Shown: piece after piece, positions 15,019-23,324 of the stretch | How positions within the stretch are numbered: the stretch's first letter is position 1 | Layout of the letters: each line of letters begins with the position of its first letter | Assembly (NCBI GenBank): GCA_002215645.1 | Contig: NGFI01000002.1 | Location: 513,406-577,405 of the forward strand | Reading direction: 5' to 3' | DNA: 64,000 nucleotides | Source of the DNA: Gemmatimonadetes bacterium 2013_60CM_65_52 | Lineage (GTDB): Bacteria; Gemmatimonadota; Gemmatimonadetes; Gemmatimonadales; Gemmatimonadaceae | Made by a program: the position numbers and the translations under genes | The notes under the pieces: generated by a model | Seen by the model: the letters and a program-made list of their open reading frames with translations, nothing else | What the model was told of the DNA's origin: nothing | Database searches by the model: none

Positions 15019-17433
15019 TCAGTCCGCCGCGTCGAGCACTTCGCGGACGCGTTTCGTCAGCTGCGCTGGTGTAAATGGCTTCTGGAGGAAGTCGATCTTC
15101 TCCTGAACGACTCCACGCCGCAGTACGTCGTCGTCGGTGTAGCCGGACATGTACAGCACTCGCAAGCCCTGCCGAGTGGCGGAGAGACGCGCGCCCACTT
15201 CGCTGCCGCTGGCCTGCGGCATGACGACATCCGTCAACAAGAGGTGAATTCTGTCGCGGTAGCTCTCGCCGATCGCGATCGCTTCGCCGGCGGTCGTTGC
15301 CTCGATCACCGCGTAGCCGGCGTCCGAGAGGATGCGCCGTGCGAGTGAGCGAAGCGACGTGTCATCCTCGACCAGGAGGATGGTCTCCGATCCGATGCGC
15401 GCAGGCCCCGACGTGCGACGGCGGGCGGTGTAATCGCCGTTGGAATGTGGCAGGCGTGGCAGGTAGATGTCGAACGTGGTGCCCCGTCCCGGTTCCGAAT
15501 CGACGAGGATCTCGCCGCTGAACTGCTTCACAACGCCATACACGATGGAAAGACCGAGGCCCGTCCCCTGTCCCTGCTCCTTCGTGGTGAAGAATGGCTC
15601 GAACAGGTGGTCTCGCGTCTCGCGCGTCATGCCTGAGCCGGTATCGACGACACTGAGTGTGACGTAGTCGCCCGGCGGCACGGATTGGCCGTCGCGCAGG
15701 ATCTCATTCGCCACCGTGACGTTGGCGGTCCGCACCACGAGGCGTCCGCCGTTCGGCATCGCGTCGCGCGCGTTGAGCACGAGGTTCATCAATACCTGCT
15801 CCAGCTGCCCCGGGTCCGCACGCACTTCGCCGAGATCGTGCGAGAGATCGAAGACCAGGGCGACGTCTTCGCCGATGAGCCGCTGAAGCATCTTCTCCAT
15901 CTCGGATGCGACGGCATTGAGATTCACCGTTTCGATCTGCAACACCTGCTTCCGGCTGAACGCGAGCAATTGGCGTGTCAGGCGGGCCGCGCGATCGGTG
16001 GACGAGCGGATCTCGAGCATGTCCTGATAGAGCTCGTCCTTGGCGTCGAGCCCCTCGAGGGCCAGCTCCGTGTAGCTGCTGATGACGGTGAGCAGATTGT
16101 TGAAGTCGTGCGCGACGCCGCCCGCGAGCCGCCCGACCGCGTCCATCTTCTGCACGTGCAGCAGCTGTGACTGCGCGAGCTCCCGTCCGGCGTTCGCGGT
16201 GCGCGCTTCTTCCGCAGCCTCGAGCAGCTCCTGGTTGGAGATCTCGAGCTCGTGCGCCATGTCCTGCGCGTCGCGGTAATGCTGCTCGAGCTCCTCGCCC
16301 TGCGCCGCCATCTCGTGCTTGGCCGCCTCGACCTCTTCGCCCATCCTGTTGAAGGACGTCATGAGCAGGCCGATTTCGTCCCTTCGCGTCGTGCCGACCC
16401 GGCGGCCGTAGTCGCCCGAGGCGAGATCGTCCGCCGCACTGCTGAGCTCGAGCAGCGGGCCGGTCACGTGATTGCCGATGACGATCGCGAACACCAGCCC
16501 GATGAGGATGATCGCGATGCCGATGCCGAACATTTGCTGGAGCGCGCGATATTGTCCCGCTCGTGCGGTGGCGACCGGCACCTGCACCCATACGAACCAC
16601 GGTGTCGCCGCGACGCGTAGCGCGACGCCCATCTGCTCGATGCCACCGGCGGGCTCATAGTACGCCGGCGCGGCGCCGAACACCCTGGCGCGATCGGGGC
16701 CCGACGTCGGTGTCGAGAGGTCCGTCCAGACGCGCGCCCCCTTGGCGTTGCCGAGCATGAAGGTGACGTCGCGTCCAATCAGCGCACTGATCATGCGCCC
16801 GCCGGTCGGCGAGGTGATCGTGCGCACCTGCACCAACGTACCGAGGGTATCCGTGCCCTTTACGACTGGCGCGATCACCGCGTAGAGGACGGTATCTCCA
16901 CGAATGACGAACGGTTGAACCCAGGCCTGCCGGCCCGCTCCCTTCACACTCACGAGCGGTGAGTGGGCCGGACAGGTCTTGAGCAGCGCGGATTCCTTCA
17001 TCTCGCCTCCCGAAGCGACGAGGCGACAATCCTTCGCGAAGAGCGCCCGCGACGCCGCTTGCAGGGGAGGGAACTGCTTCGCAAGGAGGCTTTCTGCCGC
17101 GGCGGCGGTTTGCGGCGTCGGGTTCATGAGCGATGCGACGAGTATCGGATCGCCGGCCTGTGAGGCAAGTTGATTTCGAATGAGGCCGGTCTGTTCGGCA
17201 AGCACGCTGCCCAGGCGCTGTGCGGCGACGTGGAGACGATCGGTCGCCATGGCCTCGAATGCGATGTGCAATTGGCGGTTCGCCAGAAGGCCGAACGTCG
17301 CAACGGCCAGGGCGATGAGCCCCGCGATCAAGAGCGGAAGCTTGCGTCGAAGCGGTTGAAGAGCCGGAAACCACTCAGTAAAGCGCACGAAGAAACCTGT
17401 GTAGGAAACTTGCGGTGGTTTCCGCAAACTCAA
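15019..17433 (-). CDS. Hybrid sensor histidine kinase / response regulator
   Basis: An 804-residue protein. A transmembrane helix at about 33-52 is followed by a periplasmic sensor region to ~300 (CACHE-like by length, contains a few cysteines), a second helix, a HAMP domain with coiled coil, a HisKA dimerisation helix with phospho-acceptor His442 (GGVAHDFNNLL), an HATPase domain (NLVLNARDAMPNGG, GTGLGLSIVYG), and a receiver domain (LLVEDD, phospho-Asp735 in LLTDVVMP, KPF lysine). Because the receiver is C-terminal without an output domain, the next step is probably another protein. No regulator gene is adjacent. Ligand unknown. Confidence 0.93.
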   Translation of the reverse strand: MSLRKPPQVSYTGFFVRFTEWFPALQPLRRKLPLLIAGLIALAVATFGLLANRQLHIAFEAMATDRLHVAAQRLGSVLAEQTGLIRNQLASQAGDPILVASLMNPTPQTAAAAESLLAKQFPPLQAASRALFAKDCRLVASGGEMKESALLKTCPAHSPLVSVKGAGRQAWVQPFVIRGDTVLYAVIAPVVKGTDTLGTLVQVRTITSPTGGRMISALIGRDVTFMLGNAKGARVWTDLSTPTSGPDRARVFGAAPAYYEPAGGIEQMGVALRVAATPWFVWVQVPVATARAGQYRALQQMFGIGIAIILIGLVFAIVIGNHVTGPLLELSSAADDLASGDYGRRVGTTRRDEIGLLMTSFNRMGEEVEAAKHEMAAQGEELEQHYRDAQDMAHELEISNQELLEAAEEARTANAGRELAQSQLLHVQKMDAVGRLAGGVAHDFNNLLTVISSYTELALEGLDAKDELYQDMLEIRSSTDRAARLTRQLLAFSRKQVLQIETVNLNAVASEMEKMLQRLIGEDVALVFDLSHDLGEVRADPGQLEQVLMNLVLNARDAMPNGGRLVVRTANVTVANEILRDGQSVPPGDYVTLSVVDTGSGMTRETRDHLFEPFFTTKEQGQGTGLGLSIVYGVVKQFSGEILVDSEPGRGTTFDIYLPRLPHSNGDYTARRRTSGPARIGSETILLVEDDTSLRSLARRILSDAGYAVIEATTAGEAIAIGESYRDRIHLLLTDVVMPQASGSEVGARLSATRQGLRVLYMSGYTDDDVLRRGVVQEKIDFLQKPFTPAQLTKRVREVLDAAD

Positions 17434-17585: not shown

Positions 17586-18818
17586 TCAACGCAGACGCGT
17601 CTTCCGGTCCGCGGTGTCCACGAATGCCATGTTCTCGCCAACGTAGCCGAATCGGAGACCGGCGCTCGTGGCCACCTGCTGGACCGCCTGCATGGCCGAA
17701 TCGAGCGAGGCCTTCACCGTCACCGGCCGCTTCAGCAAGGCGACGTCCGCGACGCGAACGTCATACCCGTACCAGCGCTTGAGCGCCGCGACGCCATCCT
17801 TGAGCGTGCGATGCGAGAGGGCCAGCGAACCCTTCCGCCATGCCGTGACCTCCTCGATCTCGTCCGCCGTGGCCGCACGCGTTCCTGACGCCGAGATGAC
17901 GACGCCCGCCCCCGCGTTCACCGCCTGCGGCTGATCGCCGACACGTACCTCGACCGACCCTTCGCCGACGACCACCGTGCTCGTGGAGTCGTCGCCGTAG
18001 GCTTGCACCGTGAACGAGGTACCGGTGGCCACCACGACGGCGTTCCGCACATGGACCTGGAACGGGTCCTTGAGTCCTGGTGCGACGTCGAACGTCGCGG
18101 CGCCCTCGATCTTCACGCCACGGAGCTGCGGGCCAAAGTCCTTCGGTATGCTGAGCTTCGAGTCCGGTGCGACGTGCGCGATGCTTCCGTCGGCAAGACT
18201 GATCTCGCCGGCGCGACCTGGAGGCGTCGGCACGACACGCGCATCGCTGGCGTTGACGGCCTTGGCGATCTTGCCCTTGGCTGCGACCACATCCATCACC
18301 TTCATCCCGCCGAGCACGGCCACGGCCGCGGCGACGGCGAGTCCAACGGCGATGGCGATGCCGCGATTGGAGCCCACCTTGGCGATGTGGCCGGCGGCCT
18401 CGTGACGGGACGCCGCGGCGACGGCCGCGAGCGTGCCCGGTGCATGTGCTTCACCATGCAGCGCGTGCTGGATGTGCAGCCACGACTCGTCGGGGTTGAT
18501 CGCACCGCTGCTGGCGTGGTGTGTTTCCGCGTGGCCCGCGAAGCGGTGCGCCGCGGCGCGTCGGCTGAGGGCGCGGGCGGCGGCGTGATGCACGTCCTGC
18601 GTGAGAAAGGTGGTCAGCTCCTCAGTGGTCTTGAACTGCGCGCGGGCGTCCCACGCGCGGACAAAGGCACCTTCCACCACTTTCGGGGCAAGGGCAAAGG
18701 CATCCGCGCCAAGCTGGGCGCGGGCTTTTTCACCGAGCGACGCATGCTGGGCGAAGAAGAATCGCTTGAGGGCGTCTTCGTCGCGCAGCGGAACGTCCGG
18801 CTTTACGGGTGTCGTCAT
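17586..18818 (-). CDS. FecR-like anti-sigma protein with degenerate sigma-like N-terminus
   Basis: A 410-residue protein. Residues ~10-95 (ALAPKVVEGAFVRAWDARAQ, FLTQDVHHAAARALSRRAA) resemble ECF sigma region 2 with its helix, linker and arginine-rich end, although key aromatic and basic promoter-melting residues are not clear. A single transmembrane helix is at ~152-171, a FecR domain at ~200-310 (GEISLADGSIAHVAPDSKL, VVATGTSFTVQAY), and a C-terminal secretin/TonB-short-like DUF4974 region at ~340-402. FecR proteins transmit a signal from an outer-membrane receptor to an ECF sigma factor. The nearest receptor is the SusC gene at 20217. No separate sigma gene is next to it. Confidence 0.85.
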   Translation of the reverse strand: MTTPVKPDVPLRDEDALKRFFFAQHASLGEKARAQLGADAFALAPKVVEGAFVRAWDARAQFKTTEELTTFLTQDVHHAAARALSRRAAAHRFAGHAETHHASSGAINPDESWLHIQHALHGEAHAPGTLAAVAAASRHEAAGHIAKVGSNRGIAIAVGLAVAAAVAVLGGMKVMDVVAAKGKIAKAVNASDARVVPTPPGRAGEISLADGSIAHVAPDSKLSIPKDFGPQLRGVKIEGAATFDVAPGLKDPFQVHVRNAVVVATGTSFTVQAYGDDSTSTVVVGEGSVEVRVGDQPQAVNAGAGVVISASGTRAATADEIEEVTAWRKGSLALSHRTLKDGVAALKRWYGYDVRVADVALLKRPVTVKASLDSAMQAVQQVATSAGLRFGYVGENMAFVDTADRKTRLR

Positions 18819-19158
18819 GGCAGGCTCCAGCCGTGGTGTGGTTCGACTGAATTGCGCGTCCGAACACTATTGTCCGATTCCCTGACTATATACGGAAACT
18901 TTTGTGTGCCGTCCAGAATGGGGCGAACAGACTCAGCAGTTTTGAGGTAGGACCCAGGACGCTAGGACAATAGACGGCAAGCCCGACTGTCCTACCGAGC
19001 GCGACCATAAATCGTTGCTCCACAACACTTTACATGCGACGCAGGACCTATTAGCTTTATGACTCCCGCCTGAAGCTCGCCGGGCGCTTTTCAGCGCCAA
19101 CGGAGTATGACGTACGTCCCCGCCTGGCGCCCATCGCGCCGCAGCCGACAAGGAGTCC
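18819..19158. other. Gene-free divergent region between fecR-like and ykuD_2-like genes
   Basis: About 340 bases without a convincing gene and with lower G+C than its surroundings. It should hold the promoters of both divergent genes. It includes copies of a GTAGGAC motif (18946, 18963) and its inverse at 18989-18995 forming a loose inverted repeat, a small GGCGC/GCGCC hairpin around 19083-19098, and the AGGAG ribosome binding site (19151-19155) of the downstream gene. I see no certain -10/-35 pair. Confidence 0.5.
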
Positions 19159-20028: not shown

Positions 20029-20216
20029 CTGCTCGTGGCTCCCCTTTCGCGTGCCGAGATCCGCCGCTACGATGAACGACTCTCCGCACCCACGGTACCG
20101 CGCGCGCCTGTGACCCATCCGCGCGAAACCGGGTGAGTGTGTACGTAGGTCGCGTTCCTCGAGCGGCAGTTTGCAGTTTGAGCGGACGAACATTCCTCCA
20201 GACAGGATTTCCTTTC

Positions 20217-23200
20217 ATGCGAATGGTGCCAGCCAGGATGGCGGCGAACGCCGTGGCGTTTGCGCTTCTGTTCCTGATCTCGACCGCCGGCTTCGCTGCG
20301 GCCCAGGGCACGATCACCGGACGGGTGACTGCTCAGGGTACCGGCGAGGCCATCCTCGAAACACGTGTGCTCGTCGTCGGTACGAGCCTCGTGGCGACCA
20401 CAGGGACCGACGGCCGCTACACCCTCCGCGGCGTGCCGAATGGCGCGCAACAGATCCGCGTTCTCCGCGTCGGCTTCGCCGAGCAGAAAAAGGGCGTCGA
20501 CGTGGCGGCCGGTCAGACGGCGACACTGGACTTCGTGTTGTCGGCCGTCGTGGTCAAGCTCGCGGAAGTGGTGACGACGGCGACGGGTGAGGCGCGCCGC
20601 GTCGAGCTGGGCAATACCGTGAGTAACATCAACGCGGCGCAGCGCACCGCGACGGCGCCGGTGAAGAGCCTCGCTGACGTGCTCGCCGGCCAGGCGCCCG
20701 GCGTGCAGGTCGCATCGGGATCCGTCACCGGGTCGGGCGCGCGGGTCCGCATTCGCGGAACGAGCTCGCTCTCCTTGTCGAGCGATCCGATTTACGTCAT
20801 CGACGGCGTGCGCATGACCAGCTCCACCGGCTCCGTGAGCCCGAACATCTTCGTCGGCTCCGGCGACGGACGCGGCACGCAGACGCGCGCGCTCGACATC
20901 AATCCGGACGACATCGAGAACATCGAGATCGTGAAGGGACCGTCGGCGGCGACGTTGTACGGCACCGACGCGGCAAACGGCGTCATCGTGATCACCACGA
21001 AGCACGGTCGCGGCGGCCCGCAAAAATGGACGGCGTTCGGGGAAACCGGGCTGCTGAAGGATCGCAACACCTATCCGACGGCGTACACCACCCTCGTAAA
21101 GGGTGCGACGGCCCTGAGCCAGATCTGTCGCCTCACGGCGCAGGCGGCGGGGACCTGCACGCCCGACTCGCTGCGCTCGTACAGTCTGTTCACGGATCCG
21201 ACGGCATCTCCCATCGGCAGCGGCTCGCGCCGCCAGGGCGGCGTGCAACTCAGCGGAGGATCGGAGACGCTCCGCTACTTCTCGTCGGGACAGTTCGAGG
21301 ACGAGATCGGTGTCTATCAGATTCCGTCATACGAGATCTCGCGGCTCGACACGATTGGCGGCACCCGCGAAGAATGGATTCATCCCAATCGCCTCTCGCG
21401 CCAGAATCTTCGGGCGAACATCAACGCGTCGCCGAGCGGCTCACTCGACGTCTCGGTGAACACGGGCTTCGTGCACAGCACGACGCGCATTCCGCAGACG
21501 GACAACAACTCGCTCGGGCTTCTTTCGCATGCGTACGGCGGCCCGGGCTTCGTCAGCATGCCGAGCGTGGGCTACAACCTCAGCTCGACGGGGGCGCAAT
21601 TGCACGGTTATCGCGCGTCCACGCCTGGCGACATCTTCCAGAACACCACGACGCAGGAGATCAACCGCTTCATCGGCAGCACGAATGCGAACTGGCGTCC
21701 GATCTCCTGGCTGGCGAACCGCGCCAACGTCGGCATCGACTACACGGCGCGCCAGGATCAACAGCTGTGCCGCCGGGGGACGTGTGCCGACATCGGCAGC
21801 ACGCGGCTCGGGTTGGTCGAGGACGACCGCGCGAGCATCAACACCTTCTCGGCGGATGTCGGCAGCACGGCGACGTTCGCTCCGGCCGCATCGATGAACT
21901 TCAAGACCACCGTTGGTGCGCAGTACGTGAATGCGTACTCGGGCCGCAACGGCTCGGGCACCAGCAATCTCGCGCCGGGCACGCAGACGGTGAGTGCGGG
22001 GGCCACGCCGTTTTCCGACGAGGCGACGTCCTCGAGCCGCACTCTGGGTCTGTTCATCGAGGAAGCCGCCGCGTTTCGCGATCGGCTCTTCCTCACGGCC
22101 GCGCTTCGCACGGACCAGAACAGCGCGTTCGGCACGAACTTCCAGCGCGTCGTCTACCCGAAGCTGAGCGCGTCGTATCTCATCAGCGAAGAGTCGTTCT
22201 TCCCCAAGCCTCGCTTCCTGTCGGAGCTTCGCCTCCGCGCCGCGCTCGGTGAATCGGGCGTGCAGCCCGGGCCGCTCGACGCGCTGCGCTTCTACGCGCC
22301 GGCGACCGTAAACATCAACGCCGTGGATCAGCCCGCCGTGCAGTTTTCGACGCTCGGCAACTCCGACCTGCGCCCCGAGCGCGCTCGCGAGTTCGAGGGC
22401 GGGTTCGACGCGCGGATGTTCGATAGCCGCGTCACGCTCGAGGCGACCTACTACAGCAAGGTGACGAAGGATGCGCTGATCTCCGCGGTGATCCCGCCGT
22501 CCGCGGGCTCCGGCGCCACGACGCGCCGGCAGAATCTCGGCTCCGTCAAGAACGCGGGCGCCGAGATGAGCTTGAATGCCCAGCTCGTCGACCGCCGGAA
22601 CTTCGCTTGGAGCACCACGCTGAGCGGCTCGATGAACGAGAACAAGCTCGTGACGCTCGGCGAGGGCATTCAGCCCATCGTCGGCGCGACCATTCGCCAG
22701 GTGCCGGGCTTTCCGCTGAACGGCTACTGGCAGCGTCAGATCCTGAGCTACGACGACAAGGACAAGAACGGCATCATCACAGCCAGCGAAGTCGTCGTGG
22801 ACACCGCCTTCTCGTATATCGGCTACTCCATTCCGCGCTACGAAGCGACGCTGAGCAACGGCATCGAGACGTTCAACCGGAAGGTGCGCATCAACGCGAT
22901 GTTCGACTACAAGGGCGGCAACATGCTGTTGAACGGCACGGAGCGCATTCGCTGTCAGAACCGCAACAACTGCCGCGGTCTCTTCGACCAGACGGCGCCG
23001 CTGTTCGAGCAGGCACGTGTCGTCGCGCTGCGCGACGATCCGTCGCGGACGCAGGCCGGATACATGGAGGGCGCCGGCTTCGTGCGCTTCCGTGAGCTGT
23101 CGGTCACCGCGGACATGCCGCAGATCGTCGCGGCGCATCTGCGCGCGAGCACGGCGAGCATCACCTTCGCCGGCCGGAACCTGTTCAAATGGACGAGCTA

Positions 23201-23324
23201 CAGCGGCATCGATCCGGAGAGCAATGCAGACGCGGGCGGCGGCGGAACGCTGAGCGCACCGAGCGATTTCCAGACGTCACCTCCTGTGACGTTCTACACC
23301 GTTCGACTCAATCTCGGCTTCTGA
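20217..23324 (+). CDS. SusC/RagA-type TonB-linked outer-membrane transporter
   Basis: A 1,035-residue protein. Signal peptide to ~31 (FALLFLISTAGFAAAQG), a carboxypeptidase-regulatory-like domain at ~32-105 (GTITGRVTAQGTGEAIL), a TonB plug at ~115-240 with the SusC signature RIRGTSSLSLSSDPIYVIDG, then a 22-strand-type beta barrel ending in an aromatic C-terminus (YTVRLNLGF). The ATG at 20217 is chosen because it begins the signal peptide; an upstream in-frame codon exists at 20133. Forms an energy-driven uptake pore with the SusD-like lipoprotein encoded 22 bases downstream. Cargo is unknown. Confidence 0.94.
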   Translation: MRMVPARMAANAVAFALLFLISTAGFAAAQGTITGRVTAQGTGEAILETRVLVVGTSLVATTGTDGRYTLRGVPNGAQQIRVLRVGFAEQKKGVDVAAGQTATLDFVLSAVVVKLAEVVTTATGEARRVELGNTVSNINAAQRTATAPVKSLADVLAGQAPGVQVASGSVTGSGARVRIRGTSSLSLSSDPIYVIDGVRMTSSTGSVSPNIFVGSGDGRGTQTRALDINPDDIENIEIVKGPSAATLYGTDAANGVIVITTKHGRGGPQKWTAFGETGLLKDRNTYPTAYTTLVKGATALSQICRLTAQAAGTCTPDSLRSYSLFTDPTASPIGSGSRRQGGVQLSGGSETLRYFSSGQFEDEIGVYQIPSYEISRLDTIGGTREEWIHPNRLSRQNLRANINASPSGSLDVSVNTGFVHSTTRIPQTDNNSLGLLSHAYGGPGFVSMPSVGYNLSSTGAQLHGYRASTPGDIFQNTTTQEINRFIGSTNANWRPISWLANRANVGIDYTARQDQQLCRRGTCADIGSTRLGLVEDDRASINTFSADVGSTATFAPAASMNFKTTVGAQYVNAYSGRNGSGTSNLAPGTQTVSAGATPFSDEATSSSRTLGLFIEEAAAFRDRLFLTAALRTDQNSAFGTNFQRVVYPKLSASYLISEESFFPKPRFLSELRLRAALGESGVQPGPLDALRFYAPATVNINAVDQPAVQFSTLGNSDLRPERAREFEGGFDARMFDSRVTLEATYYSKVTKDALISAVIPPSAGSGATTRRQNLGSVKNAGAEMSLNAQLVDRRNFAWSTTLSGSMNENKLVTLGEGIQPIVGATIRQVPGFPLNGYWQRQILSYDDKDKNGIITASEVVVDTAFSYIGYSIPRYEATLSNGIETFNRKVRINAMFDYKGGNMLLNGTERIRCQNRNNCRGLFDQTAPLFEQARVVALRDDPSRTQAGYMEGAGFVRFRELSVTADMPQIVAAHLRASTASITFAGRNLFKWTSYSGIDPESNADAGGGGTLSAPSDFQTSPPVTFYTVRLNLGF

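Follow-up and report, generated by a model that had tools for sequence, protein, structure and literature searches.

Known combinations of sigma and FecR domains

In the available parts of PMC5411451, PMC8999054 and PMC9249621, the fused sigma/FecR protein found in print is IutY from Pseudomonas putida, a sigma/anti-sigma hybrid of group ECF243, which the first of these sources terms a unique hybrid. According to the same parts, both sigma2 and sigma4 are complete in IutY, RIP renders the protein active in transcription, and its gene adjoins the receptor gene iutA. It is the closest known protein to the product of the gene described here, which lies in a stretch of 64,000 nucleotides (the window) from Gemmatimonadetes bacterium 2013_60CM_65_52. 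Both unite a cytosolic FecI-type sigma part, one transmembrane helix and a periplasmic FecR-type domain in a single protein. The fusion protein differs from IutY in that the complete pair of sigma2 and sigma4 is not found in it, sigma4 being not recognisable, in that the residues expected to contact polymerase and promoter are replaced, and in being encoded by an orphan gene.

Other systems are more distant. FecI-FecR pairs share with the fusion the FecR and transmembrane parts, the sigma2-like domain of the fusion is nearest to FecR-partnered ECF sigma factors, and two such loci occur in its genome. Unlike these pairs, however, the fusion is one protein and not two, has sigma2 in place of the anti-sigma bundle and has no adjoining gene for an STN receptor or a sigma factor. 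PhyR is reportedly a response regulator bearing a sigma domain. As outlined in the available part of PMC8999054, the PhyR-NepR-EcfG system resembles the fusion in that a sigma-like domain may serve protein binding and not transcription; unlike PhyR, the fusion is membrane-bound and carries FecR, and its binding of an anti-sigma factor is only putative. ECF36, 48, 52, 53 and 270 also combine sigma and a regulatory extension in one chain, and the description in that part sets them apart from the fusion as ECF sigma factors with other extensions (PMC8999054). Literature searches on FecR in Gemmatimonas or Gemmatimonadetes and on sigma2-only ECF proteins with FecR retrieved no such fusion.

Layout of the gene and its product

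The gene is intact, and its parts, in window positions, are as follows.

17586..18818, minus strand: whole gene of the sigma2-like / transmembrane / FecR fusion, an ATG-initiated reading frame of 410 aa; full-length relatives exist
18825..18828, minus strand: GGAG, likely ribosome-binding site, read from the sequence
18543..18785, minus strand: FecI-type ECF sigma region 2-like domain, residues 12-92, core W56 and R59 kept (profile comparisons, tree, predicted helices)
18681..18683, minus strand: codon of K46; Asp or Glu takes this position in each of the 39 ECF sigmas compared (alignment counts)
18369..18596, minus strand: His-rich stretch, residues 75-150, 12 His among 76 residues in the window protein, H144 in 76/77 members (composition)
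18450..18497, minus strand: residues 108-123, 'vDxaWxxIxxxLh' segment resembling the pre-transmembrane segment of conventional FecR, probable last anti-sigma helix (profile comparison)
18303..18359, minus strand: transmembrane helix, residues 154-172 (mean hydropathy 2.46)
17949..18233, minus strand: FecR domain, residues 196-290, predicted periplasmic (Pfam)
17685..17816, minus strand: FecR C-terminal domain, residues 335-378 (Pfam FecR_C E 0.027, below the cut-off; 15/18 relatives match at E<=1)

The window protein thus has the sigma domain, the transmembrane helix and FecR in this order in one chain. Its FecR domain is well supported by Pfam (E 5.6e-14, 52.8 bits against a cut-off of 24) and is matched in 18/18 relatives at E<=1. 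Furthermore, a single segment above the hydropathy threshold precedes the FecR domain in 76 of the 77 family members described below.

The N-terminus resembles sigma region 2

Judged by profile comparisons, the N-terminus of the fusion is homologous to sigma-70 region 2, of the FecI-like ECF type. Individual sequences reveal this weakly. Pfam Sigma70_r2 matches the window protein at residues 48-88 with E 0.025, or 0.0033 when the N-terminal 107 aa are scanned alone, and is found at E<=1 in 4/18 full-length members (best 0.021); Pfam is less sensitive here than the profile comparisons. Residues 12-128 give weak matches to several NCBIfam sigma-factor models, the best at 4.6e-5 with the first 107 residues. 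When 20 N-termini of the family are taken together, they hit 21 NCBIfam families at E<=0.01, each of them a sigma-factor family, Sig70_bacteroi1 being the commonest (17/20 N-termini). A profile of the same 20 N-termini retrieves three of 177,635 distinct PDB sequences at E<=10, and all three are ECF sigmas (9n9q RpoE 4.8e-4, SigL 0.0096, CnrH 0.067).

In hhalign, the family profile aligns to 23 ECF sigma2 regions of the same genome over 81 columns with probability 95.9, E 6e-9 and a score of 53.6, as compared with a mean of 10.3 (SD 2.1, maximum 17.8) for 200 column shuffles and 13.6 for the reversed profile. These 23 form an unselected comparison set, unlike the 16 nearest ECFs, which were picked for high family scores, two to four of them in the knowledge of a FecR nearby; figures derived from the latter, such as an E-value of 2e-20, are therefore biased upward.

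Comparison of predicted structures agrees in part. A single-sequence AlphaFold2 model has helices at 14-24, 26-36, 38-57 and 65-100, with block pLDDT of about 67-90 over residues 11-90 and poor confidence past residue 95, including the helix at 108-123. Foldseek places a sigma structure first and others at ranks 2, 4, 5, 8, 12 and 13, but the best E is 0.45 (9n9q sigma); VIA-align ranks an unrelated ribosomal chain first and gives numerous sigma2 structures a Z of 5-8, less than would be decisive for helical bundles. Chain C of 9n9q, both the closest solved sigma in sequence and the top Foldseek entry, is RpoE as part of an RNA-guided transcription complex.

The first-pass annotation had described an N-terminus like sigma region 2 ahead of a transmembrane helix and FecR, and this description holds. 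It had also allowed for a chance likeness, which would here be one of Ala-rich helices. The single-sequence Pfam score under the cut-off and the weak fold matches would fit such a coincidence, yet the PDB, NCBIfam and hhalign results, the phylum-wide search and the tree all oppose it. The profile comparisons with column shuffles exclude this option, and its probability is negligible.

A protein family within one taxonomic family

The fusion is a conserved protein family of the order sigma2, transmembrane helix, FecR, within one taxonomic family. Matches to the fusion protein at E<=1e-5 occur in 27/41 genomes (its own and 40 relatives), and they take in the N-terminal part in 20, in one case as two contig pieces (G008) and in another as a piece cut at a contig end (G019). 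All 20 belong to the taxonomic family of the window, which contributes 25 genomes to the set; none of the matches in the set's 16 genomes from two further families of that order includes the N-terminal part. With the A2 N-terminal profile, 395 genomes of the phylum yield two kinds of match: long frames covering nearly the whole profile, which among the matches listed come from the same family only, and mostly ECF-sized frames with partial matches, which among the matches listed are spread over many families.

From these searches 77 members were examined, 72 from the 395 genomes and 5 from the 41, leaving out a duplicate of the window gene and a second copy in one genome (G105); at least six further long frames are listed. 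Letters stand at the FecR columns in 73/77, and the other four are short contig-end pieces as far as readable. The domain order noted at first pass therefore recurs in the 77 members, all within one taxonomic family among the matches listed. Outside the phylum, 108 plasmid records match the fusion protein, none over 80% of the query, and the best 20 of the 108 align only from residue 191 onward, that is, with the FecR part. A scan of the genome contigs gave one further locus with a 37-residue match, which was not used.

One genome of the same family (G016) has 30 FecR-like matches in 2.9 Mb, far above its relatives, and none of these begins in the sigma2-like part.

Descent from FecI-type sigma factors

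Tree, profile ranking and signature residues indicate that the sigma2 domain of the fusion descends from sigmas of the FecI type. Among the 59 sigma2 domains in a tree over 95 columns, in which many forks are unresolved, 20 fusions form a single clade (100/100) that groups with 13/18 FecR-partnered ECFs; 5/18 fall with the genome's other ECFs (97/94). Among the 26 sigma ORFs that ECF profiles detect in this genome, the best match to the family sigma2 model is a FecR-partnered sigma (L058) with 55.1 bits, followed by one with 27.5 bits, and the other FecR-partnered sigma (L042) scores 27.3 bits. This ranking and the hhalign comparison to same-genome ECFs with shuffles are the unselected tests of ancestry and homology. 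A FecR ORF is present in the same locus for 16/16 of the nearest ECFs, a figure biased upward, versus 2/30 of the genome's sigma loci. Furthermore, W56 is kept in 73/77 and R59 in 76/77 fusions; both are present in 16/16 FecI-like ECFs, and in only 5 and 1, respectively, of the 23 in the genome's own ECF set.

Altered surfaces on a conserved domain

Alignments of 39 ECFs and 77 fusions, on which the column counts were made, reveal systematic substitutions in the fusions at the positions where a sigma factor would be expected to contact RNA polymerase and the -10 element. Position 46 is Asp or Glu in 39/39 ECFs, as against Lys or Arg in 69/77 fusions and an acidic residue in none (0/77). Gln at position 49 occurs in 36/39 ECFs versus 3/77 fusions, and Asn at position 78 in 30/39 versus 2/77. 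We take positions 46, 49 and 50 to be D403, Q406 and E407 of sigma70, which contact the beta-prime clamp, and position 78 presumably falls in the -10 contact region. The homology to sigma region 2 that belongs to an ECF sigma factor is present in the fusion; the acidic and Gln residues of region 2.2 expected to touch the polymerase clamp are lacking. The fold and the hydrophobic core of sigma2 are kept, as would be required if the tethered domain held core polymerase at the membrane and thereby titrated it, but with the expected clamp contacts changed and the charge at position 46 reversed in most members, this seems very unlikely.

The domain is nevertheless under purifying selection and as conserved as the FecR part: its surfaces are rewritten, not eroded. 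Over residues 8-98, dN/dS is 0.08-0.27 in 10 non-overlapping pairs of more than 72% identity, as compared with 0.06-0.45 for the FecR residues in the 9 pairs having them; for the linker, one value of 1.97 comes from very few sites. All-pairs identity is 0.345 in the sigma2 part versus 0.354 in the FecR part. The first-pass annotation had called the domain decayed, which is apt for the altered functional surfaces (46, 49 and 78) but not for decay itself. A vestigial sigma domain without function would account for the loss of sigma hallmark residues; it is disfavoured by the dN/dS of the sigma2 part and by full-length frames being kept throughout one taxonomic family, and we regard it as highly improbable.

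The segment between sigma2 and the membrane

As far as profile comparisons can tell, sigma4 is missing or unrecognisable in the fusion. Residues 99-152 score 11.6 against ECF profiles that include sigma4, not above the shuffles (200; mean 8.1, maximum 14.6), so that a sigma4 remnant in this segment lacks significant support; Pfam finds no sigma4 in the window protein or in 18 members. A shrunken sigma4 may still be present, because the family HMM aligned 4/5 further sigma ORFs onward into the start of sigma4, as an extension of the sigma2 match. These results bear on the possibility that the fusion is a reduced sigma of the IutY type, in which proteolysis frees the N-terminal part and sigma2 still binds core polymerase and changes transcription without sigma4. 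The order of sigma, transmembrane and FecR parts is that of IutY, which RIP activates according to the available part of PMC5411451, an M50 protease is present and the sigma2 core residues are kept. Activation of a hybrid of the IutY type would involve Prc and RseP. However, acidic 46, Gln 49 and Asn 78 are lost in nearly all 77 members and sigma4 is not recognisable; IutY, as described in the available part of PMC9249621, retains both sigma2 (8-84) and sigma4 (100-164). We consider this possibility unlikely.

The same segment matches conventional FecR N-termini. Residues 99-152 score 20.25 (E 0.0017, probability 15.6) as compared with a mean of 7.4 and a maximum of 14.2 for 200 shuffles, and the hhalign match spans just 21 columns, the 'vDxaWxxIxxxL' segment. 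W113 with Asp or Glu three residues upstream is found in 53/77 fusions; a looser form of this W-helix pattern occurs in 13/24 FecR N-termini (these 24 include one fusion member and one duplicate) versus 1/16 ECFs. For residues 1-98 there is no match to the N-termini of conventional FecRs (score 13.5, E 0.11), and no Pfam domain for the anti-sigma helix bundle is found among 18 members. In class I anti-sigma domains, according to the available part of PMC7406223, helix 4 binds sigma2 at the polymerase-clamp surface and helix 1 binds sigma4. We infer that residues 108-123 may be the last helix of a reduced anti-sigma domain.

The charges on sigma2 region 2.2 and on the downstream helix are, in the sequences compared, altered reciprocally. 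The region 2.2 helix carries on average a net charge of -2.1 in ECFs versus -0.4 in fusions, and the segment one of +1.4 in conventional FecR versus -1.0 in fusions; Arg at W+6 is present in 10/14 conventional FecR helices versus 4/68 fusions, the conventional counts omitting 8/22 FecRs that lack the motif.

The histidine-rich stretch

Histidine makes up 10.5% of residues 75-150 (mean of 77 members), as compared with 1.9% for 16 ECFs and 1.4% for the N-termini of conventional FecRs. H144 is kept in 76/77, and H121 and H139 each in 58/77. This stretch (18369-18596) is conserved in the fusion family, and neither sigma nor FecR ancestry accounts for it. It could be imagined that the cytosolic part is itself a sensor of a metal or another ligand, in which sigma2 serves as scaffold, the His-rich juxtamembrane stretch binds the ligand and the output goes to some partner. 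The enrichment and the kept His residues speak for such a sensor. Against it, no known metal motif was recognised, H144 alone is nearly invariant and no gene of any sort is conserved nearby; there seems to be only a minor chance that it applies.

Genomic context

None of the 32 sigma region 2 matches found genome-wide at E<=0.01 lies between C2:513406 and 577405, the limits of the window, which agrees with the first-pass remark that no sigma gene adjoins the fusion. The adjacent sigma gene and STN receptor that accompany a FecR regulator are absent from this locus. Three FecR domains are encoded in the genome, and two adjoin ECF sigma genes. At C5:167972-169916 and C13:453587-455285, an ECF sigma and a FecR are followed directly downstream by a frame that STN matches weakly, below the cut-off. 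These two loci are possible cross-talk partners of the fusion.

The neighbours of the fusion gene encode a hybrid histidine kinase, an L,D-transpeptidase and a TonB-dependent receptor. The last (20133-23324), divergent from the fusion gene, is SusC/RagA-like with a carboxypeptidase-regulatory-like domain and without STN. The 457-aa frame after the TonB-dependent receptor (L063:14753-16123) has no Pfam match and by eye looks like a SusD-type lipoprotein. The kinase (15019-17433; HAMP, HisKA, HATPase and receiver) lies directly downstream of the fusion on the same strand, an arrangement that is not conserved. In 16 neighbourhoods of 11-19 kb no conserved partner gene was found: the fusion is the sole common gene, and every other cluster, as defined with our own ORF caller, occurs in at most 3 of 16. 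A sigma ORF besides the fusion lies within the stretch in 2/16 (L067, L068).

A possible mode of action

On the basis of these sequence comparisons, it is possible to speculate about origin and function. In the reading that we favour, the fusion would be a FecR-type membrane transducer carrying a repurposed FecI-type sigma2 in place of its cytosolic anti-sigma domain, and this sigma2 would act by sigma mimicry; we consider this a serious possibility, somewhat short of an even chance. Adjoining sigma and fecR genes would have fused, and sigma4 would have disappeared together with the anti-sigma helix bundle by which it is gripped. What would be left is sigma2 followed by the last anti-sigma helix, the part that binds sigma2 in class I anti-sigma factors. 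If residues 108-123 are that helix, the lost parts (sigma4 and its gripping helices) and the kept parts (sigma2 and its helix) are exactly complementary, as would result if a single deletion had removed the middle of a sigma-fecR gene pair. The first-pass idea of a fused sigma/anti-sigma unit fits this inferred origin. Its other idea, a decoy, would suit a domain predicted to have lost its contacts with polymerase and promoter.

The fusion would direct no transcription itself, because it has no recognisable sigma4 and because the residues contacting polymerase and the -10 element are replaced. Its pseudo-sigma2 would serve to bind other proteins and would probably be restrained by the helix downstream of it. 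Upon receipt of a signal by the periplasmic FecR domain, the cytosolic part could be exposed or be released by intramembrane proteolysis; in favour of this reading, the genome encodes an M50 (site-2) protease. Against it, the Gly-Thr site at which FecR reportedly cleaves itself is not kept (Thr in 39/73). The freed pseudo-sigma2 might then mimic sigma and compete for anti-sigma factors, for example the two conventional FecRs of this genome. The altered surface is, however, the one used by canonical anti-sigma helices, and therefore the fusion may have lost its affinity for other anti-sigmas as well. The lack of a conserved partner gene in the 16 neighbourhoods, the shortness of the helix match and the possibility of a shrunken sigma4 also weigh against this reading.

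A more detailed form of the mimicry reading can be envisaged: a membrane-tethered pseudo-sigma2 over which the anti-sigma helix remaining in the same chain forms a cap, the charges of the two being exchanged, until the FecR sensor, perhaps with a His-bound metal, removes this cap and lets the pseudo-sigma2 titrate the anti-sigmas of other FecI-FecR systems. This form is speculative and somewhat unlikely. If true, it would be a new class of sigma mimic, an anti-anti-sigma into which a fossil pair of sigma and anti-sigma has been turned.

Throughout a taxonomic family, a sigma/FecR fusion is maintained that is different from IutY and has its sigma surface rewritten. If mimicry is the true function, a sigma domain would have exchanged its role in transcription for one in signalling, as part of a membrane receptor, and the family would provide a natural test of which sigma2 residues are important for binding to polymerase and which for binding to anti-sigma factors.
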